Shown here: in pieces, positions 38,129 to 56,991 of the stretch
Layout of the letters: every line of letters starts with the position of its first letter
Position numbering within the stretch: position 1 is the first letter of the stretch
Assembly (NCBI GenBank): GCA_902573905.1
Contig: CACGLL010000003.1
Location: 1-64,000, forward strand
From: an uncultured Pelagibacteraceae bacterium
GTDB taxonomy: Bacteria; Pseudomonadota; Alphaproteobacteria; Pelagibacterales; Pelagibacteraceae
Direction: 5' to 3'
DNA: 64,000 bases
Position numbers and translations under genes: made by a program
Notes under the pieces: model-generated
Seen by the model: the letters and a program-made list of their open reading frames with translations, nothing else
Database searches by the model: none
Told to the model about the DNA's origin: nothing

Positions 38129-38486
38129 GCCAGATAGTTGGATTGTCGCTGTCAGATTTCTGATAGAGGAAAGTCCGGGCTCCGTAAAGACACAGTGCCA
38201 GTTAATGGCTGGCGAGGGTGACTTCAGGGATAGTGCCACAGAAAATAAACCGCCTTATCAAGGCAAGGGTGAAACGGCGAGGTAAGAGCTCACCGGTTTT
38301 TTGGTAACAAAAAACGCACGGCAAACCCCACTGGGAGCAAGGTTAAATAGAGAAGACGTAGTGGAAACACGAAAAACAGTCTTTAGTTGGTCTTCTGGGT
38401 TAACCGCTTGAGCTTAAATGTGAATTTAAGCCTAGAGAAATGACATCTTCAATGACAGAACCCGGCTTACAGATTATCTGGCAACC
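38127..38486 (+). ncRNA. rnpB: RNase P RNA (bacterial type A)
   Basis: Conserved GAGGAAAGTCCGGGCTCC ... GGGTGAAACGGCG ... AGAACCCGGCTTACAGATT; terminal P1 pairing TTGCCAGATA/TATCTGGCAA. Confidence 0.95.
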
Positions 38487-38626: not shown

Positions 38627-39088
38627 ATGTTTTTATCAAGTTACGAAAACAGAATAGACAAGAAAGGACGTGTTTCAGTGCCTGCAACTTTTAGATCACA
38701 TTTAAACTCTATGGGATACAATGGATTTATTAGTTATCCTTCCTTTAATCACGCTGCACTAGAAGCTTGTTCACAAGACAGAATTGAAAAACTTTCTAAC
38801 ACTATCGACTCATTGAATCCTTTTGAAGAAAAAAGAGATTTTTTTGCCACTTCAATTTTGTCTGAAAGTGAAAATTTACAGTTTGATACTGAAGGTAGAA
38901 TTTCATTGCCTTTAAAACTACTCAATCATGCAAAAATAAAAAACAATATTTTATTTGTTGGTTTGGGAAAAACATTTCAAATTTGGGAGCCAAGCAATTT
39001 TGAAAAATTTAAAATAGTTGCAAGAAAAAAAGCTTTTCAAAATAGATCTAATTTAAAATGGGAAAACAAACAGAAGGGAGAACTGTAA
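38627..39088 (+). CDS. mraZ: Transcriptional regulator MraZ
   Basis: SSYENRIDKKGRVSVPATFRSHL, DTEGRISLPLKLLNHAKI; start of dcw cluster. Confidence 0.95.
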   Translation: MFLSSYENRIDKKGRVSVPATFRSHLNSMGYNGFISYPSFNHAALEACSQDRIEKLSNTIDSLNPFEEKRDFFATSILSESENLQFDTEGRISLPLKLLNHAKIKNNILFVGLGKTFQIWEPSNFEKFKIVARKKAFQNRSNLKWENKQKGEL

Positions 39089-40581
39089 TGAGTATAAATA
39101 TTGGTGGCGGGGAACTTAAAGAATTAAAACCAAGAATTTTAGTATTAGGAGTAGGTGGTGCTGGAGGAAATGCAATAAATGCAATGATTGACTCTGGTAT
39201 GAAGGGTGTTGAATTTGTTGCAGTTAATACAGACGCACAAGATTTGAAAATGAGTAAAGCCGATGCAAAAATTCAAATTGGAATGAATTTAACTAAAGGC
39301 TTAGGTGCAGGTGCTAAACATGATATTGGCCAAGCTGCAGCAGACGAGTCATTAAACGAAATAACAAATTACATACAAGGTTCTAACATGGTTTTTATAA
39401 CTTCAGGGATGGGAGGAGGCACTGGTACTGGAGCTTCACATGTAATAGCTAAAGCTGCGAGAGAACTCAATATTTTAACAGTTGGTGTTACAACACTCCC
39501 TTTTGCTTATGAAGGTCCAAAAAGAATGAGAAGAGCAATTCAAGGCTTAGAGGAATTTAAAAAACATTTGGATACGGTTATAGTAGTACCAAACCAAAAT
39601 CTTTTTAAAATTGCTAGTGAAACGACAACTTTTAAAAATGCTTTTATATTATCAAATAATGTTCTTAAACACGGAGTTCAAAGTGTAACAGACCTCATGG
39701 TAAGACCTGGAATGATTAACCTTGATTTTGCAGATGTAGAAACTGTAATGAGTTCAATGGGTAAAGCTATGATGGGTACAGGTGAAGCTGAAGGAGAAAA
39801 CAGAGGTAAAGTGGCAACTGAAATGGCATTAAATAATCCTCTAATTGATGAGTATTCTTTAAAAGGAGCAAAAGGATTATTAGTTAATATAACTGGAGGA
39901 GATGATCTAACTTTATTTGAGGTAGAAGAGTCTGTTAACAGAATTAGAGCCGAAGTTGATCCTGAAGCAGAGTTAATTTTTGGAGCAATTGAAGACACAG
40001 AACTTAATGGAAAAATTAGAGTTTCAATTGTTGCAACTGCATTAGATGGCCACAAAACAGAAAATAAAACAGTCTTAAATATGGTATCAAGAATTCAGAA
40101 TAGAAATACTGGTTACTCTGAAAATTTATTTTCTCATAATCCTATAATGGATAATAGTACATTGGGTGCAATTGAAGGAGCAACAGCGTTAAAACTTGAC
40201 GAAAGTTTTGAAATTAAAGATGAAACTCAAAACAATATAATTAATGATGCTTCAACTAGTTTAAATGAAGAGGCACCAAACAATATTAGTACTGAAAATA
40301 ATTTTAATGATCTTCCGACCGGAGTATCAATTGAAAGCGCCTCTTATATTGAGAACTCCAGTTTAGATAACAATGAAGAAATTACAAAGCAGGCAGATAG
40401 TATAAATAATGAGGAAGAATATACGCCTAAACTTTTTTCTGAAGAAAATAACACGTCTGAAGAAATTAATGATGAGAATAACGATCAATCTCACCGAGAT
40501 TCAGATGAATTATTTGATCAAGATCTAAATGAAGAAGAAGATTTTGAAATTCCTGCCTTCTTAAGGAAACAAAAATTTTAA
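39088..40581 (+). CDS. ftsZ: Cell division protein FtsZ
   Basis: VLGVGGAGGNAINAMI, SGMGGGTGTGASHVIAKAA, NLDFADVETVMSSMGKAMMGTGEA, C-terminal EIPAFLRKQ; ATG at 39088 (ATG overlaps mraZ TAA) preferred to 39058. Confidence 0.95.
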   Translation: MSINIGGGELKELKPRILVLGVGGAGGNAINAMIDSGMKGVEFVAVNTDAQDLKMSKADAKIQIGMNLTKGLGAGAKHDIGQAAADESLNEITNYIQGSNMVFITSGMGGGTGTGASHVIAKAARELNILTVGVTTLPFAYEGPKRMRRAIQGLEEFKKHLDTVIVVPNQNLFKIASETTTFKNAFILSNNVLKHGVQSVTDLMVRPGMINLDFADVETVMSSMGKAMMGTGEAEGENRGKVATEMALNNPLIDEYSLKGAKGLLVNITGGDDLTLFEVEESVNRIRAEVDPEAELIFGAIEDTELNGKIRVSIVATALDGHKTENKTVLNMVSRIQNRNTGYSENLFSHNPIMDNSTLGAIEGATALKLDESFEIKDETQNNIINDASTSLNEEAPNNISTENNFNDLPTGVSIESASYIENSSLDNNEEITKQADSINNEEEYTPKLFSEENNTSEEINDENNDQSHRDSDELFDQDLNEEEDFEIPAFLRKQKF

Positions 40582-40599: not shown

Positions 40600-41610
40600 A
40601 TGAACAATCATACATCATCACTGGAATTCTCGCATTTTCCAGTGATGTTGAATGAGGTTCTAAAAATAACCTCTCCATTCAATGGAGGCAAATATATTGA
40701 CTGTACATTTGGTGGAGGTGGATATTCTAAAGAAATTTTAAAAATTCCTAAAACTGAAATAGCAGCAATAGATAGAGATAATAATATTAAATCAATTGCA
40801 GAAGAACTAGAAAGAAAATTTCCGAAACGATTTAAATTTTATCAAATAAAATTTAGTCAGCTAGATACTATTATCGAGAATCGTGTTGATGCAATAATAT
40901 TTGATTTAGGTCTATCTTCTATTCAATTAGATAACCTTGAAAGAGGTTTTTCATTCAAATCAGATAAACAATTAGACATGGCAATGGGCCTTAATAATAT
41001 TTCTGCTTTGGATGCTGTAAATAATCTTAGTGAACCAGATTTAAAATCGATAATTAAATTTCTTGGTGACGAAAAAGAAGCCACAAGAATTGCAAGAAAC
41101 ATTGTTAATTCTAGAAAGAAAAAAAGAATAACTAAAACTAATCAACTAGTAAAAATTATTGAAGAAAGTAAAAAAAAAAATTTTTCAAAAAAAATAAATC
41201 CTTGCACTAAAACATTTCAGGCTCTTAGAATTTTTGTAAATAAAGAAATAAGTGAGTTAATAAATGGAATTATTAATGCTACCAAAAAATTAAAACCAGG
41301 TGGGAAAATTTTAGTTGTAACCTTTCATTCTATTGAGGATAAAATAGTAAAATTTTTTTTTAATAATTATTCAAAAAACAAATCTAGATCGTCAAGATAT
41401 CTTCCTGAAGATAAGATTAAACAAGCATATTTGTTTGAGGCATACAAAAATAAAGTTCTTAAACCTTCTAAAAAAGAATTGGAAATAAACAATAGAGCAA
41501 GATCTGCAAAATTAAGGTTTGCAATTAGAAGCAATACTGATTTTCAATATCCTCACGAGTTAATTGATAAGTTTAAAAATTATTTAGAACTGGAGTCAGC
41601 AAATGTTTAA
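40600..41610 (+). CDS. rsmH: 16S rRNA m4C1402 methyltransferase RsmH (MraW)
   Basis: FPVMLNEVL, YIDCTFGGGGYSKEIL, DLGLSSIQLDNLERGFSF, TFHSIEDKIVK. Confidence 0.97.
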   Translation: MNNHTSSLEFSHFPVMLNEVLKITSPFNGGKYIDCTFGGGGYSKEILKIPKTEIAAIDRDNNIKSIAEELERKFPKRFKFYQIKFSQLDTIIENRVDAIIFDLGLSSIQLDNLERGFSFKSDKQLDMAMGLNNISALDAVNNLSEPDLKSIIKFLGDEKEATRIARNIVNSRKKKRITKTNQLVKIIEESKKKNFSKKINPCTKTFQALRIFVNKEISELINGIINATKKLKPGGKILVVTFHSIEDKIVKFFFNNYSKNKSRSSRYLPEDKIKQAYLFEAYKNKVLKPSKKELEINNRARSAKLRFAIRSNTDFQYPHELIDKFKNYLELESANV

Positions 41611-41941
41611 TTCAAAATTATTTTTTTCATTAGCTGTATTTACATTTTTCTTAATAATAACTTCTTTAGTTAAAAATCAGTCAAGAATAATAGAAAAACA
41701 AATAAAAGGTTTAAATATTAATATTATAGCTAAAGAAAAAAACATTAGTGAAGCTGAAATGGAATTTTCATACTTATCTTCACCAAATGAAATTGAGAAA
41801 AAATTTAATAGCGGAGATCTAGAAAAATTTGAACCAATTAAACAATCAAAGATATTTTACGATGTACACGATTTTAATACACTTGAAAAGAAGTTATCCA
41901 ATTTAATTATTATAGATGAAAAAAAAATCAGGAAAAAATAA
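41603..41941 (+). CDS. ftsL: FtsL-like cell division protein
   Basis: Short bitopic protein with N-terminal TM, between rsmH and ftsI. Confidence 0.65.
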   Translation: MFNSKLFFSLAVFTFFLIITSLVKNQSRIIEKQIKGLNINIIAKEKNISEAEMEFSYLSSPNEIEKKFNSGDLEKFEPIKQSKIFYDVHDFNTLEKKLSNLIIIDEKKIRKK

Positions 41942-43637
41942 AACAACTAATCAAAGAAGTTTTTATTTTGAAGATTATCTAGAAACAAATAAAAAATCAA
42001 AAAATTTTAAAAAATATAATAATTTTGAGGATAGAAATTATCTATTATTCTTTTTCTTTTTTTCTCTAATTACAATTTTCTCAATAAAAATAGCATTTAT
42101 TTCATTAAGCCAAAAAGAGATATTGGGCTTTAATAATCAAAATTCCAAATTTAACTTACTAAGGAGAGATATAGTTGACAGAAATGGTATAATAATTTCT
42201 AGAAATATAAACGCATATCATGCTGCGGTTAATCCAAAATTAGTTAAAGATAAAAAAAATTTTTTAATAAAATTAAGATTAATTTTCCCCAATCTTCCGA
42301 TTGATGAGATTAGACAAAAACTTAATGGGAAAAAATATTTTCGTATTAAAACAAGGATAACTCAAAATGAAAAACAAAAACTTTGGTCATTAGGAGAAAA
42401 AGCAATAAAATTTGAACCATTTCAAGCCAGAATGTACACACATGGAGATCTATTTAGCCATGTTATAGGCCAAGTCGATTATGATAATTTTGGAATTTCA
42501 GGACTTGAAAAATATTTTGATAAAGAATTAAAAAGTAAAAATTTAAAAGATACTCCATTAGAGTTAACTTTAGATAGCAACATTCAATATATAATTAACA
42601 AAGAATTAAGCGAAGCTGTAAAAACTTTTGATGCTTCAGGTGCTGCAGCTTTATTAATGAACGTAAATAATGGTGATATATTATCTTTAGTTTCTTTACC
42701 TAATTTCAATATAAATCAACGTAAAACCATTACAGACAAAAATTATATTAATAAAATTACAAAAGGTGTTTATGAATTAGGATCCATTTTTAAAACCTTT
42801 ACTGTAGCATTAGCTCTTGAAAGAAATATTGTTAAAAAGGATACAGTTATTGAAAACATTCCCAGAAAATTGAAATGCTCTATTCATGAAATTACTGATA
42901 TGAAAGAACATCCAAGCAACCTTTCAACAGAGGAAATTTTAGTAAGATCTTCAAATGTTGGATCAGTTATTTTAGCTCAAAAAATAGGTGAGGATGTTTT
43001 CAAAAAATTTATAAAAAATACTAATTTAACAAAAGTTCCAGACATTGAACTTGAAGAAGTTGGGGCTCCTCATGAGATAAAATGGAATAAATGCAAGATC
43101 GAAACGGTTTCTTTTGGCCATGGAATAACAACCACCCCTCTTCAAGCCACAACGTTATATGCCAGTCTCACTAATGGAGGAAATTTAGTCACTCCTAGTT
43201 TAATAAAAGAGAGAAATAAAATTGAAACAAAAAAAATTATATCTAATGAAACAAGTAAAGAAATATCAAGTATTCTGAGGCAAGTTGTTAGTAGCGAAAA
43301 TGGAACAGCAAGTTTAGCAGATATAGATGGGTATTATGTAGGAGGAAAAACAGGGACTGCAGAAAGCTACGGAAACAATAAACAAAGAATAAATTCATTT
43401 ATTTCTGTTTTTCCCACAAAAAAACCAAACTATTCATTATTTGTTATGTTAGAAAATCCAAAACTAAATAAAGATCTAATTTATAATTATCGTGGAATAA
43501 AAACTAAAGCACCATATAATACCTCTGGTTGGAATTCTGTTTATGTTGCTGGCAAAATAATAGAAAAAATTGGACCAATTTTAGCCATAAATAATAAGGA
43601 TTTTTTAAACCAATATGTTGTTGAAAAATTTAATTAA
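41916..43637 (+). CDS. ftsI: Peptidoglycan transpeptidase FtsI (PBP3)
   Basis: RRDIVDRNGIIISRN, YELGSIFKTFTVALALE (SxxK), SSNVGS (SxN), GGKTGTAE (KTG). Confidence 0.95.
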   Translation: MKKKSGKNKTTNQRSFYFEDYLETNKKSKNFKKYNNFEDRNYLLFFFFFSLITIFSIKIAFISLSQKEILGFNNQNSKFNLLRRDIVDRNGIIISRNINAYHAAVNPKLVKDKKNFLIKLRLIFPNLPIDEIRQKLNGKKYFRIKTRITQNEKQKLWSLGEKAIKFEPFQARMYTHGDLFSHVIGQVDYDNFGISGLEKYFDKELKSKNLKDTPLELTLDSNIQYIINKELSEAVKTFDASGAAALLMNVNNGDILSLVSLPNFNINQRKTITDKNYINKITKGVYELGSIFKTFTVALALERNIVKKDTVIENIPRKLKCSIHEITDMKEHPSNLSTEEILVRSSNVGSVILAQKIGEDVFKKFIKNTNLTKVPDIELEEVGAPHEIKWNKCKIETVSFGHGITTTPLQATTLYASLTNGGNLVTPSLIKERNKIETKKIISNETSKEISSILRQVVSSENGTASLADIDGYYVGGKTGTAESYGNNKQRINSFISVFPTKKPNYSLFVMLENPKLNKDLIYNYRGIKTKAPYNTSGWNSVYVAGKIIEKIGPILAINNKDFLNQYVVEKFN

Positions 43638-46371
43638 AGAAATCCCTTTTAATACAAGAAATATTTCAATTAATGGAATTTCATCAAATAGTAATAGCAC
43701 AAAAAAAAATTATATCTTTTTTGCCATCAAAGGAAAAAAGGAGAATGGTGAAAATTTTATCAAACAAGCAATTAAAAAAGGAGCCTCCGTCATAATTTGT
43801 TCAAATAAATGTAAATTCAAAGATAAAAATATACTAGTAATTAAAAAGAAAAATGTAAGAAACTTTTTGAGCGAAATTGCCTCTAGGTTTTATAACTTAA
43901 AACCGAAAAACATAATTGCTGTTACCGGCACTAATGGAAAAACATCTGTTGCTGATATGTTTTATCAATTATTTAGGTTAAACAATAAATCTGTTGCTTC
44001 AATTGGAACGTTGGGAATTAAATATAATAATAAATTTTTAAAAACAAGTCTGACATCACCTGACACGATATCATTACATAAGACTCTTAACTTTCTTAAA
44101 AAAAAAAAAATTGAAAATGTAATTATCGAAGCTTCAAGTCATGGTTTGCATCAAGAGAGACTTCATCATATAGATTTTAAATCAGCTGTTTTTACTAACT
44201 TTAGTCAAGACCATTTGGACTATCATAAGAATATGAAAGCATATTTGAATGCTAAGCTTATTTTATTTAGAAAAATTTTGAGAAAAAAAACTAAAATAAT
44301 TTCAGATAAGGATATTTTACCATTTAAAATCTTAAAAAAAATATCCAAAAAAAGAGGATTAAAATTAGTTGATATAAATAATGAGTTTTTAAAAGTTAAA
44401 AACCAATTACCTGCTTTTCCAGATTTTAAGAAAAAGAATTTAGCGATGGCAATTTTAGCTGCGAAAATATGTAGACTAAAAGATCATTTAATTTACGGAA
44501 AAATAAAAAAAATCAATGATGTAAATGGAAGATTGGAATTAGTAAAAAGATTTCCAAATAAAGTAAAAGTTTTTTTAGATTATGCTCACACCCCAGATGC
44601 CCTTTTAAAAACTTTAGAGTGTTTTAAAAATGAAAATAAAAAAAATATATCTATTGTTTTTGGCTGTGGAGGAGATAGAGATAAAAAAAAAAGACCATTA
44701 ATGGCTAGGATAGCAAATAAATATTGCAGTAAAATTTATATAACAGATGACAATCCAAGGAATGAAGACCCTCAAAAAATTAGAAAAGAACTCTTGAAAT
44801 ATATTCCAAGAAAAAAAAGTTTTAATATTGGAAATAGACGTTCCGCTATTGAAGAATCTATTAAAAAGGCAATTCCTGGAGAAATAATATTAGTAGCAGG
44901 AAAAGGACATGAAGAAATTCAAATTTATAAAAATAAAATTTATAAAATATCTGATAAAAAAATTATAAAAGGAACCATTATAAAATCAAAAAAATTCTCT
45001 AAAAAAAAATTTAATTATTTTGAAAACAATTCAATTCTACAAAAAATTACGGGTTATAAAAAATTTATCAATTTTGACGGATTATCCACTGATACTAGAT
45101 TAATAAAAAAGGGTAATTTATTTTTAACACTCAAAGGCAAAAAAAATAATGGAAATAAATTTGTTAAAGACGCTTTAAAAAAAGGTGCAAGCTGTGTTGT
45201 ATCTGAATCTCCAAAAAAAATTGGAAATAACATAATCAAGGTAAAAAATGCTATCTCATTTTTAAATTCCTTTGCAAAACTAAAACGTGAAAAATCTTCT
45301 GCAAATATAATTGCTATTACTGGAAGTGCTGGAAAAACATCTCTAAAAAATTTGCTAGGTCAGTTACTAAAAAAATTTGGTGAAACGTATTTTTCACCAA
45401 AATCTTTTAACAATCACTTAGGCGTTCCTATAAGTTTATCTAATTTAAGCTCATTCGATAAATACGGTGTTTTCGAAGTTGGAATGAGTAAGGCCGGAGA
45501 AATTAAACACTTGTCAAAATTAATAAGACCTCATTTAGGTATAATTACCAATATTGGTGAAGCACATTTAGAAAATTTTAAAAATGTAAAAGGAATAGCT
45601 AAAGCGAAATCTGAAATAATAGAAAGCATCAAAAGAGGTGGAAAAATTATTTTGAATAGAGATGATAAATTTTTCAATTTTCTATACCAAAAAGCAAAAT
45701 CCTTTAATCTTGAAATAATTACTTTTGGCAAACATAGAGAGTCAAATATCTTATTGAAAAAGATTAATGAAAAAAATGGAAATTCAAAAATTTTTGTAAA
45801 TATAGATAATCATAGTTTAATTTATGAATTTAGAGATATTAATATTTATAATATTCTGGCAAGCTTAGCTGCACTGCATGCATTAAAAATTGATATCAAA
45901 AAGATAAAATCACTAATAAAGAATTTACAACCATCGTCTGGAAGAGGAAAAAAATATAATATTTTAAGATATAAGAAAAAATTTAGATTTATCGATGAAA
46001 GTTATAATGCAAACCCATTATCAGTAAAAAATGCCATTTTAAGATTTAAATCATTTAAAAAAGAAAAATTTAAAAAATATTTAGTATTGGGCGACATGTT
46101 GGAATTAGGCCAAAAATCGAGAAAATATCATGAAGAAATTTCAAAAGTTATTAACAATTCTGATATCGACAAAGTATTCGTTAAGGGAAAACAAACTATA
46201 TTCACCTATAAGAATCTAAATAAAAATAAAAGAGGAAATATTTTGCAAAACACAGAGGATATAGACTTAAACTTGAGAAACATAATTTCTAATAATGATT
46301 ATTTAATGATTAAAGGATCTAATGCTACAGGTTTAAACAACTATAGTAAAAATATTATAAAAGGAATTTAA
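43615..46371 (+). CDS. murEF: MurE-MurF fusion
   Basis: 918 aa with two Mur ligase units: AVTGTNGKTSVADMF...DDNPRNEDP (MurE, meso-DAP type) then AITGSAGKTSLKNLL...FEVGMSKAGEI...DESYNANPLSVK (MurF). Confidence 0.93.
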   Translation: MLLKNLIKEIPFNTRNISINGISSNSNSTKKNYIFFAIKGKKENGENFIKQAIKKGASVIICSNKCKFKDKNILVIKKKNVRNFLSEIASRFYNLKPKNIIAVTGTNGKTSVADMFYQLFRLNNKSVASIGTLGIKYNNKFLKTSLTSPDTISLHKTLNFLKKKKIENVIIEASSHGLHQERLHHIDFKSAVFTNFSQDHLDYHKNMKAYLNAKLILFRKILRKKTKIISDKDILPFKILKKISKKRGLKLVDINNEFLKVKNQLPAFPDFKKKNLAMAILAAKICRLKDHLIYGKIKKINDVNGRLELVKRFPNKVKVFLDYAHTPDALLKTLECFKNENKKNISIVFGCGGDRDKKKRPLMARIANKYCSKIYITDDNPRNEDPQKIRKELLKYIPRKKSFNIGNRRSAIEESIKKAIPGEIILVAGKGHEEIQIYKNKIYKISDKKIIKGTIIKSKKFSKKKFNYFENNSILQKITGYKKFINFDGLSTDTRLIKKGNLFLTLKGKKNNGNKFVKDALKKGASCVVSESPKKIGNNIIKVKNAISFLNSFAKLKREKSSANIIAITGSAGKTSLKNLLGQLLKKFGETYFSPKSFNNHLGVPISLSNLSSFDKYGVFEVGMSKAGEIKHLSKLIRPHLGIITNIGEAHLENFKNVKGIAKAKSEIIESIKRGGKIILNRDDKFFNFLYQKAKSFNLEIITFGKHRESNILLKKINEKNGNSKIFVNIDNHSLIYEFRDINIYNILASLAALHALKIDIKKIKSLIKNLQPSSGRGKKYNILRYKKKFRFIDESYNANPLSVKNAILRFKSFKKEKFKKYLVLGDMLELGQKSRKYHEEISKVINNSDIDKVFVKGKQTIFTYKNLNKNKRGNILQNTEDIDLNLRNIISNNDYLMIKGSNATGLNNYSKNIIKGI

Positions 46372-53217: not shown

Positions 53218-54145
53218 AAAAAAATTTAAAAATATTCTAGTAGTTTTAGGTGGAAATTCAGGTGAGAGAGCTGTTAGTTTGGAAAGTGGCAAGGCTTGTA
53301 TTAAAGCACTTAAAAAAATTAAATACAAAGTATCCTCCTTTGATCCCCAAAAAAAAAATTTTAACTTAATAAATAAAAGTAAAACTGACGCTATTTTTAA
53401 TGCCTTACATGGAAAGGATGGCGAAGATGGTATTGCTCAAAGTTATTTTGAATATCTTAAAATTCCCTATACTCATTCTGGAGTAATAAGTTCATTTAAT
53501 GCAATGGATAAATTAATTTCTAAAAAAATATTTTTTAAACATAAAATAAAAACACCAAAATATTTTTCAATAAGTAAAAATTATAAGATTTCATTGATAG
53601 ATAAAAAGTTAAAATTAAAAAGAATTATTTATCCAGTTATTGTTAAACCAATAAATGAGGGATCAAGCCTAGGCGTAGAGTTATGTAAAAATAAAAAAAA
53701 ATTAACAAATTCAATTAAGAAATTAGTAAAAAAGTATGGTCGAGCAATGATAGAACAATATATCCCAGGACAAGAAATCCAAGTAGCTATAATTAATGGA
53801 AAACCACTCGGCGCTATTGAACTTATACCTAGGCGTCAATTTTATGACTATAAAGCTAAATATACTAAATCTGCAAAAACAAAACACATCATGCCTGCAA
53901 GGTTATCTAAGTTGAAGTATTTAGAAGTTTTAAATATTGCTAAAAAAATACATGATGCTTTTAAATGTAGAGGAGTCACAAGAACAGATTTTAAGTTTTA
54001 TAAAGATAATTTTTATTCACTAGAAATTAATACCCAACCAGGTATGACAAGTCTTTCTTTAGTGCCTGAAATAGCAAATTATAGAGGTATAAATTTTGAA
54101 CAATTAGTTGAAAAGATTTTGTTGGATGCAAGTATTAATAAATGA
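53210..54145 (+). CDS. ddl: D-alanine-D-alanine ligase
   Basis: VVLGGNSGERAVSLESG, ALHGKDGEDGIAQ, VKPINEGSSLGV, EINTQPGMTSLSLVP; GTG start. Confidence 0.95.
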   Translation: MNKKKFKNILVVLGGNSGERAVSLESGKACIKALKKIKYKVSSFDPQKKNFNLINKSKTDAIFNALHGKDGEDGIAQSYFEYLKIPYTHSGVISSFNAMDKLISKKIFFKHKIKTPKYFSISKNYKISLIDKKLKLKRIIYPVIVKPINEGSSLGVELCKNKKKLTNSIKKLVKKYGRAMIEQYIPGQEIQVAIINGKPLGAIELIPRRQFYDYKAKYTKSAKTKHIMPARLSKLKYLEVLNIAKKIHDAFKCRGVTRTDFKFYKDNFYSLEINTQPGMTSLSLVPEIANYRGINFEQLVEKILLDASINK

Positions 54146-54801
54146 GAAATAAACCCATTTTCGGCATTGCATTATTTATTCTATTTTCAACTTTCATTTC
54201 ACAAAATAAATTCACAATTAACAAATTTGAAATTAAAGAAATAGAAATAGAAAATAATGAAATTTTAGAAGATCAAGAATTGATTAAAATTTTTTCTTTT
54301 CTATACAACAAAAATATAATTTTTCTTAATTCTTATAAATTAAAAAAAAATATAGATCAAAACAGCTTTATAGAAAAAATTGAAATAAAAAAAATTTTTC
54401 CAGATAAACTAGTAATTAAAGTTTTTGAAAAAAAACCAATAGCAATATTGATAGATAAGTATCAAAAAAAATATTATTTAGGAAAAAAAAATGATTTAAT
54501 TGAGTATAGATATATACTGAAATTTGACAACTTACCGATCGTCGAGGGTGAACTTAAGAGTTTTAAAAAACTATTTAATAACTTAATTAAAACAAATTTT
54601 CCTACAGAAGAAGTTCTAAGTTATAGACTTTTTAAGCTTGATCGATGGAATATTGAAATGATTGACAAAAAAATTTTAAAATTACCCACAAAAAATTACA
54701 CTGAAAGTTTGATCAATTTTATAAATATTAAAGATAAAACTAATTTTGAAAAGTATAAAATTTTTGATTATAGATTAAATAATCAACTAATTTTGAAATA
54801 A
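54142..54801 (+). CDS. ftsQ: FtsQ/DivIB-like cell division protein
   Basis: Bitopic, POTRA-like FEIKEIEIENNEILEDQELIKIF...IEKIEIKKIFPDKLVIKVFEKKPIAI; between ddl and ftsA. Confidence 0.82.
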   Translation: MRNKPIFGIALFILFSTFISQNKFTINKFEIKEIEIENNEILEDQELIKIFSFLYNKNIIFLNSYKLKKNIDQNSFIEKIEIKKIFPDKLVIKVFEKKPIAILIDKYQKKYYLGKKNDLIEYRYILKFDNLPIVEGELKSFKKLFNNLIKTNFPTEEVLSYRLFKLDRWNIEMIDKKILKLPTKNYTESLINFINIKDKTNFEKYKIFDYRLNNQLILK

Positions 54802-54805
54802 ATTT

Positions 54806-55999
54806 ATGAAAATTTTACCTAAACTTTTTATAAGCATTAGTAACAATGAAATCATTATAATTACAGGAAGCACAGATGATCAAAATAGTTTTGAGTTATT
54901 AGAAAAATTGATTTTACCGACTGATAGTATAAGCCAAAATAGGATTTTAGACTTAGAAAAGATTACCAATCTTATTAAAAGAAATATCTTATTAATAGAA
55001 CAGAAACTTAATTATACTTTTAAAGATATAATTTTAATTTTAGATAATCTTGAAACTTCTTTTTTAAGTTTATCTGGTTTTAAAAAACTTAATGGAACGC
55101 AAATTTCTAAAGAAAACATTACTTATATTTTAAATTCATTGAAATCATGTGTTGAAGAATTTGAAAAAAATAAGAAAATTTTACACATTTTTAATTCAGA
55201 ATATTGTTTAGATAAAAAAAAATTAGATAATTTACCTATAGGTTTATTTGGTAATTTTTACTCTCACGAATTATCCTTTAATTTAATTGATAAAAATAAT
55301 TACAAAAATTTAAAAAATATTTTTAAACAATGCAATTTAAAAGTAAAAAAAATATTACTAAAGAGTTTTGTAAAAGGATCTTTAATTATCGATGACAATC
55401 CAAATATTGATACTTTTTTTTATATTGAAATTAATGATATAAATTCAAAAATATTTTATGTTGAAAATAACGCTATTAAATTTGAGCAAAAATTTAATTT
55501 CGGAACAAAAATAATAATAAGTGATATTTGCAAAATCACATCTTTGACGAGTGACACAGTAGAAAATATAATTTCAGAAAATGAAAATATAAACAAAATT
55601 CCAGATAAAGAGTTATTAGAAGAAAAATATTTCAATAATCAGCAATATAGGAAAATAAAAAAAAATCTAATTGCAAAAATTGCAGAGGCAAGGATCAATG
55701 AATTATCTGAGAAGCTTCATTCTAAAAATATTAATCTTAAAAAACTAATAGGAAAAACTAATCTAATTTTTTTAGAAATAAATGCCCCGTATCATTTGAA
55801 TTGTTTTAAATATGAGTATGAAAAAAGTTTTGCCTTTAATAATCAATACGAGGTTAAAATAAAGAAGAAGCCGGATATTGAGCAAATTATAAATAAAGCT
55901 GATAATATTGTTCAATTTGGTTGGAAAAAGGAGGCCATTCCTGTCACAAAATCAAAAAAAACCTTCCTGACACGAATTTTTCAAGAAATTTTTCGGTAA
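54806..55999 (+). CDS. ftsA: Highly divergent FtsA-like protein
   Basis: Position between ftsQ and lpxC, about 400 aa, C-terminal amphipathic KKTFLTRIFQEIFR; canonical phosphate-binding motifs not recognisable. Confidence 0.65.
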   Translation: MKILPKLFISISNNEIIIITGSTDDQNSFELLEKLILPTDSISQNRILDLEKITNLIKRNILLIEQKLNYTFKDIILILDNLETSFLSLSGFKKLNGTQISKENITYILNSLKSCVEEFEKNKKILHIFNSEYCLDKKKLDNLPIGLFGNFYSHELSFNLIDKNNYKNLKNIFKQCNLKVKKILLKSFVKGSLIIDDNPNIDTFFYIEINDINSKIFYVENNAIKFEQKFNFGTKIIISDICKITSLTSDTVENIISENENINKIPDKELLEEKYFNNQQYRKIKKNLIAKIAEARINELSEKLHSKNINLKKLIGKTNLIFLEINAPYHLNCFKYEYEKSFAFNNQYEVKIKKKPDIEQIINKADNIVQFGWKKEAIPVTKSKKTFLTRIFQEIFR

Positions 56000-56061: not shown

Positions 56062-56991
56062 GTGATGTACGATATTTACCAAAAAACTCTAGCTTCTGAA
56101 ATTATATTTAAAGGCATAGGTCTTCATTCTGGCAAGCCTTCAACTTTGAAGTTAATACCTTCTGAAGAAAACAGCGGTATTGTTTTCAAAAGGGTAGATC
56201 TTGAGGAAAATAACTTAATAAACGCAAGTTACACTAATGTAACATCAACTAAATTATGCACAACATTAGAAAATAGTTTTGGCACAAAAGTATCAACTGT
56301 AGAGCACCTACTAGCAGCTATTTATATATATGGAATAGATAATTTAATAGTCGAAATAGATAATGAGGAAGTTCCGATTATGGATGGCTCAGCTAAAATT
56401 TTTTTAGAAAATTTGAGCAAGGTAGAGCTTATAAATCAATCAAAAAAAAGAAAATATTTAAAAGTTATTGATAAAGTTGAACTTGTAGATGGAGAAAGAA
56501 AAATTTCTATTGAACCTAGCCATGAATCATTCGAGATAGACTTTCAATTGAATTATGAAAATAAAGTTATTGGAAAGCAAAGAAATAAATTTAATTTTTT
56601 AACAGATAATATTAAAGACATATCAGACTCAAGAACATTTTGTTTATACACCGATATAAAAAAAATAAAAAATTTGGGCCTAGCAAAAGGAGGGTCTTTA
56701 GATAATGCGATAGTCGTTGATAATAATAAAGTTTTAAATGAAGACGGATTAAGAAATAAAAAAGAGTTCGTCAATCATAAAATTTTAGATTTAATTGGCG
56801 ACTTTTTATTATCTGGATACAGATTAATTGGAAAGATAAAATGTTACCAAGGTGGACACGAGTTAAGCAACATGTTTTTAAAAAAATTATTTCAAAATAA
56901 GCTTTCAACAAATTTAATTGAATTACAAACCATAGATATTTCAAACAAAAATAATTCTCAACAAGTTAGCAAAATTGCTGTAAACGCATAA
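56062..56991 (+). CDS. lpxC: UDP-3-O-acyl-N-acetylglucosamine deacetylase
   Basis: GIGLHSGKPSTLKL, STVEHLLAAIYIYGIDN, PIMDGSAKIF, FVNHKILDLIGD, GGHELSNMF. Confidence 0.97.
   Translation: MMYDIYQKTLASEIIFKGIGLHSGKPSTLKLIPSEENSGIVFKRVDLEENNLINASYTNVTSTKLCTTLENSFGTKVSTVEHLLAAIYIYGIDNLIVEIDNEEVPIMDGSAKIFLENLSKVELINQSKKRKYLKVIDKVELVDGERKISIEPSHESFEIDFQLNYENKVIGKQRNKFNFLTDNIKDISDSRTFCLYTDIKKIKNLGLAKGGSLDNAIVVDNNKVLNEDGLRNKKEFVNHKILDLIGDFLLSGYRLIGKIKCYQGGHELSNMFLKKLFQNKLSTNLIELQTIDISNKNNSQQVSKIAVNA

Follow-up and report, generated by a model that had tools for sequence, protein, structure and literature searches.

A SAR11 FtsA orthologue with predicted loss of the ATP site, a probable nucleotide-independent FtsZ anchor and divisome adaptor

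The 397-aa gene in the ftsA slot of the window (the whole 64,000-nucleotide stretch of Pelagibacteraceae DNA that was analysed; source genome 59% complete) is a SAR11 ftsA orthologue by descent. It was filed as such, and not as a canonical ATP-binding FtsA, because the three ATP motifs are absent. FtsA normally uses ATP while tethering the division ring to the membrane; the window protein has probably dispensed with ATP and would, independently of nucleotide, anchor FtsZ and serve as divisome adaptor. The gene and its neighbours are as follows:

54142..54801, + strand: ftsQ, upstream neighbour (Pfam POTRA_1, 4.7e-11)
54806..55999, + strand: ftsA orthologue, 397 aa, ATP motifs predicted lost (HMM, AlphaFold, Foldseek and hhalign matches)
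56062..56991, + strand: lpxC, downstream neighbour (TIGR00325, 1e-86)

The open reading frame was confirmed at these coordinates, with the length and the C-terminal end (KKTFLTRIFQEIFR) given in the initial annotation. It was matched by TIGR01174, the NCBIfam ftsA model, over residues 11–313 (E=1.2e-26) with 93.7 bits, which is below the equivalog cut-off of 175.85 bits; this cut-off was reached in just 13 of the 298 genomes of the order. Pfam SHS2_FTSA scored 25.8 bits (cut-off 25.4) over residues 89–150, phmmer against solved FtsA gave 7.5e-9, and hhalign against alphaproteobacterial FtsA gave a probability of 97 (E=1e-10, 366 columns). The AlphaFold model, calculated from 80 sequences (the window protein and 79 relatives), had a pLDDT of 89.7 and a pTM of 0.86. 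When this predicted model was used in Foldseek, the top 19 PDB chains were all FtsA, followed by PilM, with MreB-type actins lower; the TM-scores were moderate (0.55–0.66), as is to be expected when the domains of a protein move. The predicted actin-like fold has 1C in place of 1B (Pfam, AlphaFold, Foldseek). The profile and fold comparisons with FtsA that had been proposed as a check thus both returned FtsA. Named relatives among the 80 loci all belonged to Pelagibacterales/Pelagibacteraceae (SAR11), among them HIMB058 (74% identical) and the single cell AG-907-B17 (78%).

The window protein resembles canonical FtsA (E. coli, T. maritima and alphaproteobacteria) in the ftsQ-ftsA-(ftsZ)-lpxC gene order, the 1C fold, the Arg/Glu pair in 2B and the C-terminal helix. 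It differs in lacking the phosphate-1, phosphate-2 and adenosine motifs, in remaining under the NCBIfam equivalog cut-off, and in that ftsZ has moved between mraZ and mraW in the SAR11 window. The degenerate sites were located by aligning the protein with FtsA of E. coli and of alphaproteobacteria:

54833..54850, + strand: phosphate-1 site, residues 10–15, SISNNE vs. DIGTTK
55427..55444, + strand: phosphate-2 site, residues 208–213, EINDIN vs. DIGGGT
55775..55789, + strand: adenosine motif site, residues 324–328, EINAP vs. TGGAA

The degeneration of the phosphate-2 and adenosine motifs had been noticed previously and held up in the alignment: FYIEINDINSKIFY (residues 205–218) aligns with the E. 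coli phosphate-2 segment VVDIGGGTMDIAVY, the change being genus-wide, and FLEINAPYHLN (residues 322–332) lies opposite the E. coli adenosine motif LTGGAAQ. The loss of phosphate-1 is an addition to the motifs listed in the initial annotation; here E14, G16, T17 and K19 of E. coli correspond to S10, S12, N13 and E15, and most genus members have EINxxx. All three actin-type ATP motifs were likewise missing in the 32 aligned genus members (30–58% identity to the window FtsA), which rules out sequencing error. By alignment, the ATP site is lost throughout the genus, with all three motifs replaced.

For ten ATP-pocket columns conserved at ≥85% in alphaproteobacteria, none was kept in the window genus and one in the sister genus (g9), vs. 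five to six in Pelagibacter (our reading of genus g6; full-length proteins), in genera g7 and g8, and in the sister family f2. The window genus also kept just 19 of 103 other alphaproteobacteria-conserved columns, and the complete absence of pocket columns did not differ significantly from this general divergence (estimated chance about 0.13); the case for pocket loss is therefore based on the contrast with related genera, the 2B site and the tail, not on this count alone. The glycine run of phosphate-2 was altered in every aligned genus of the order (DIQKNKT in f2, DFGKDKT in g7, DIGFERT in Pelagibacter), suggesting that the change began early and was completed in the window genus. In the sister family (e.g. 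locus L035), phosphate-1 reads DIRADK, with Arg in place of the first glycine in 28 of 30 aligned sequences.

E. coli FtsA is non-functional with E14R or D210A, changes that fall on two of the pocket positions replaced in the window protein (PMC10213515), so that pocket loss should be costly. The FtsA of Deinococcus radiodurans is similar to the window FtsA in that it reportedly functions with no ATPase activity, but it binds ATP and needs ATP for polymerisation (PMC4281207), whereas the binding motifs are missing from the window FtsA. The segments retained in the window protein are:

55052..55291, + strand: 1C (SHS2) subdomain, residues 83–162, boundaries approximate (Pfam SHS2_FTSA, conservation, dN/dS)
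55493..55540, + strand: block FNFGTKIIISDICKIT, equivalent to GGxxVTNDIA of FtsA (G233 nearly invariant, D240 invariant)
55661..55723, + strand: 2B helix, residues 286–306, with R296 and E299 (alignment; helix in the model)
55919..55942, + strand: segment GWKKEAIP, preceding the membrane helix (G372, W373, E376, A377 and P379 invariant in 80 sequences)
55955..55996, + strand: C-terminal amphipathic helix KKTFLTRIFQEIFR, predicted to be membrane-targeting (hydrophobic moment; similar tails across the order)

Subdomain 1C was the best-conserved domain in the genus (mean majority fraction 0.71 vs. 0.38–0.62 elsewhere). Its dN/dS in comparisons with five relatives was also the lowest, at about 0.07–0.15. 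In E. coli, 1C of FtsA contacts FtsN/FtsQ and FtsA itself. FtsN has been found to bind FtsA in the 1A–1C cleft (PMC7613929), and recruitment of FtsQ/FtsN has been reported for 1C (PMC4281207). In 2B, R296 and E299 were invariant in all full-length groups aligned (32/32 in the window genus, 6/6 in the sister genus, 10/10 in full-length Pelagibacter, 30/30 in the sister family and 29/29 in alphaproteobacteria). They align with R300 and E303 of E. coli FtsA, which we take from E. coli and T. maritima work to be the FtsZ-contact pair; our literature search found no paper naming these two residues as FtsZ contacts. In T. maritima, an Arg in the FtsZ tail forms a salt bridge with FtsA 2B (PMC5256927). 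FtsZ binding is lost when 2B is deleted (PMC4281207). The last 11 residues of the window protein had a hydrophobic moment of 0.90, the highest of all its 11-mers (shuffle p=0.003), so the suggested amphipathic membrane helix is plausible by sequence.

The partner of this putative binding site is encoded upstream in the same window:

39058..40581, + strand: ftsZ, between mraZ and mraW and not after ftsA (TIGR00065, E=1.3e-113; Pfam tubulin/FtsZ)
40543..40572, + strand: FtsZ C-terminal peptide FEIPAFLRKQ, near identical to E. coli DIPAFLRKQ

The FtsZ end, EEDFEIPAFLRKQKF in the window vs. PDYLDIPAFLRKQAD in E. coli, was conserved in the genus. The displacement of ftsZ had been offered in the initial annotation as support for a functional change of FtsA, and this argument was dropped: in both families of the order, ftsA follows about 15–16 kb downstream of ftsZ, also in genera with a better-kept FtsA, and the offset thus has no bearing on ATP-site loss. 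The surrounding cluster of division and cell-wall genes runs mraZ, ftsZ, mraW, a 112-aa ORF, ftsI, an apparent murE-murF fusion, mraY, murD, ftsW, murG, murC, murB, ddl, ftsQ, ftsA, lpxC and bamD (murG, murC and murB were named by eye from their sequences). The longest ftsZ ORF and the end of mraZ share about 30 bases. The apparent fusion (43615–46371) is a 918-aa ORF with two sets of Mur-ligase middle and C-terminal domains, the 112-aa ORF (41603–41941; no Pfam match at 1e-5) is a candidate ftsL by position, and an RNase P class A RNA lies just upstream of mraZ (38130–38485).

In Pelagibacter, the slot between ftsQ and lpxC was occupied by one of two forms: a 368–391-aa FtsA with part of the pocket kept, or a protein of 220–244 aa (~234) that matches FtsA residues 1–186 followed by a C-terminal membrane helix. 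The short form keeps 1A, 1C and the amphipathic helix and lacks all of domain 2 (2A and 2B), and with it phosphate-2, the adenosine motif and the site at which FtsZ is known to bind. It was present in 33 Pelagibacter genomes, including the single-contig genomes G062, G063, G067 and G070; these were most of the Pelagibacter genomes surveyed, in a survey that favoured genomes without an FtsA model match, so that this share is not unbiased. An ftsQ-sized ORF lay directly upstream and lpxC downstream:

L262–L319, e.g. L310:2933-3631:+ and L293:960-1658:-: short-form slots of Pelagibacter, between ftsQ and lpxC

A profile of the short form matched full-length Pelagibacter FtsA at E=1e-35, FtsA of the window genus at 4e-19 and, weakly, alphaproteobacterial FtsA at 7e-5. 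Candidates for further shrinkage to 73–133 aa (G075, G102, G144, G168, G214 and G234) were rejected because the genes run off contig ends, as was a 174-aa slot ORF in the single-contig G073 (L281), the N-terminal part of which lies in another frame (frameshift or sequence error). The gene tree preferred at least two changes for the domain-2 deletions, with a single clade not rejected (AU p=0.26), and the lpxC tree was weak at several deep nodes. Judged from the sequences compared, erosion of FtsA is SAR11-wide. A nucleotide-free FtsA seems to have been reached in two ways: in one the ATP motifs eroded, in the other domain 2 was deleted. The short form is without half of the ATP cleft; this speaks for members of the family being able to do without ATP binding by FtsA, and makes it more likely that the window FtsA can do without it too. 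No paper on SAR11 FtsA, motif-eroded or domain-deleted, was found in the literature search; most subscription papers were outside its reach, so an earlier description is possible.

SepF and ZipA are nucleotide-free membrane anchors that bind the FtsZ tail. The window FtsA would work like these anchors, although their folds are unrelated to FtsA, and Pfam searches detected SepF (PF04472) and ZipA (PF04354) in 0 of 23 SAR11 genomes with positive control genomes. This absence excludes those two known anchors only. ZapA was detected in 20 of 20 SAR11 genomes.

Homology to a different family was named in the initial annotation as an objection to its reading; insertion of, for example, a PilM-like or MreB-like protein in the ftsA slot is scarcely credible. 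PilM shares the fold with a 1C domain and gives weak matches, but FtsA outranks it in NCBIfam (1e-26 vs. 0.0075) as well as in Foldseek, a distinct MreB-type gene (assigned from its match pattern) is found at G000:C3:79980, and graded relatives bridge the window protein and canonical FtsA. In PilM, the 1A–1C cleft binds the cytoplasmic tail of its bitopic partner PilN; PilM is not from a cell-division locus. That the gene is a decaying pseudogene has an equally negligible probability: a weak HMM score and extreme AT-richness would fit decay, but the genus copies compared have no internal stops, 18 columns are invariant in the alignment of 80 sequences, and the overall dN/dS of about 0.2–0.3 in the five comparisons, a check in relatives that had been suggested at the outset, indicated purifying selection.

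Degenerate actin folds sometimes still bind nucleotide, and the window FtsA could do so via a pocket rewired with different residues. The predicted two-domain fold is intact, the G233/D240 block is retained, 27 of 32 genus members have an acidic residue at the position of E14, and half of the pocket survives in other SAR11 genera; there is no ligand in the AlphaFold model. We consider such rewiring improbable, since the glycines of all phosphate and adenosine loops and the phosphate-1 Lys are replaced genus-wide, and nearly so in the sister genus, and since no part of the protein is less conserved than the adenosine-motif segment (mean majority fraction 0.38), which has the highest dN/dS (0.5–0.84) in three of five comparisons. 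Somewhat less improbable, though still unlikely, is that FtsZ anchoring has been lost too, FtsA being a 1C-based scaffold that links FtsN/FtsQ to the membrane while some other protein anchors FtsZ. The conservation of 1C, the deletion of domain 2 with its 2B site by relatives that kept 1A/1C and the membrane helix, and the modest conservation of 2B as a whole in the genus (0.55) agree with this scaffold. Moreover, FtsZ in short-form genomes still ends in (D/E)(L/F)EIPAFLRRQ, so that the tail may bind to something else; this makes the case for FtsZ binding by 2B in the window FtsA weaker. Against the scaffold, the window genus keeps domain 2, R296/E299 are invariant there and in every full-length group, and neither SepF nor ZipA was found.

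The reading that we prefer for the window FtsA is, with good probability, that of an ATP-independent FtsZ anchor and divisome adaptor. The nucleotide-independent membrane anchor of the initial annotation stands insofar as the pocket residues are gone and the FtsZ contacts, FtsZ tail and helix are conserved; "anchor" alone proved too narrow, because the strongest selection is on 1C. The C-terminal helix would sit in the inner membrane, 2B would bind the FtsZ tail, and further divisome proteins (FtsN/FtsQ) would be contacted by the 1A–1C side. In this way the Z-ring would be tethered and the signal relayed to the septal wall machinery, with no polymerisation or release from the membrane under ATP control. 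In short-form species, the FtsA remnant would act only via 1A–1C and the helix, and FtsZ would have to attach to these parts or rely on a different anchor. We lean, a little less firmly, towards dismantling of SAR11 FtsA along two routes: in the window genus and in g9, its sister, erasure of the ATP site would have left the fold in place, and in most Pelagibacter surveyed domain 2 would have been deleted, leaving a 1A–1C "half-actin" with its helix. The essential function would then be that of an adaptor/anchor only, the FtsZ tail in half-actin species using a new site or an anchor still to be discovered.

Whether and why FtsA needs ATP binding is an open question of divisome biology, and several E. 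coli FtsA pocket mutants fail to support division. In a lineage as abundant as SAR11, an FtsA without its ATP site, or without half of the protein, constitutes a natural experiment that would separate the anchoring and adaptor roles of FtsA from actin-like polymerisation. It would also set out what a minimal FtsA consists of and supply a simple component for cell division in reconstituted or minimal systems, and cultured SAR11 strains should make these ideas testable.
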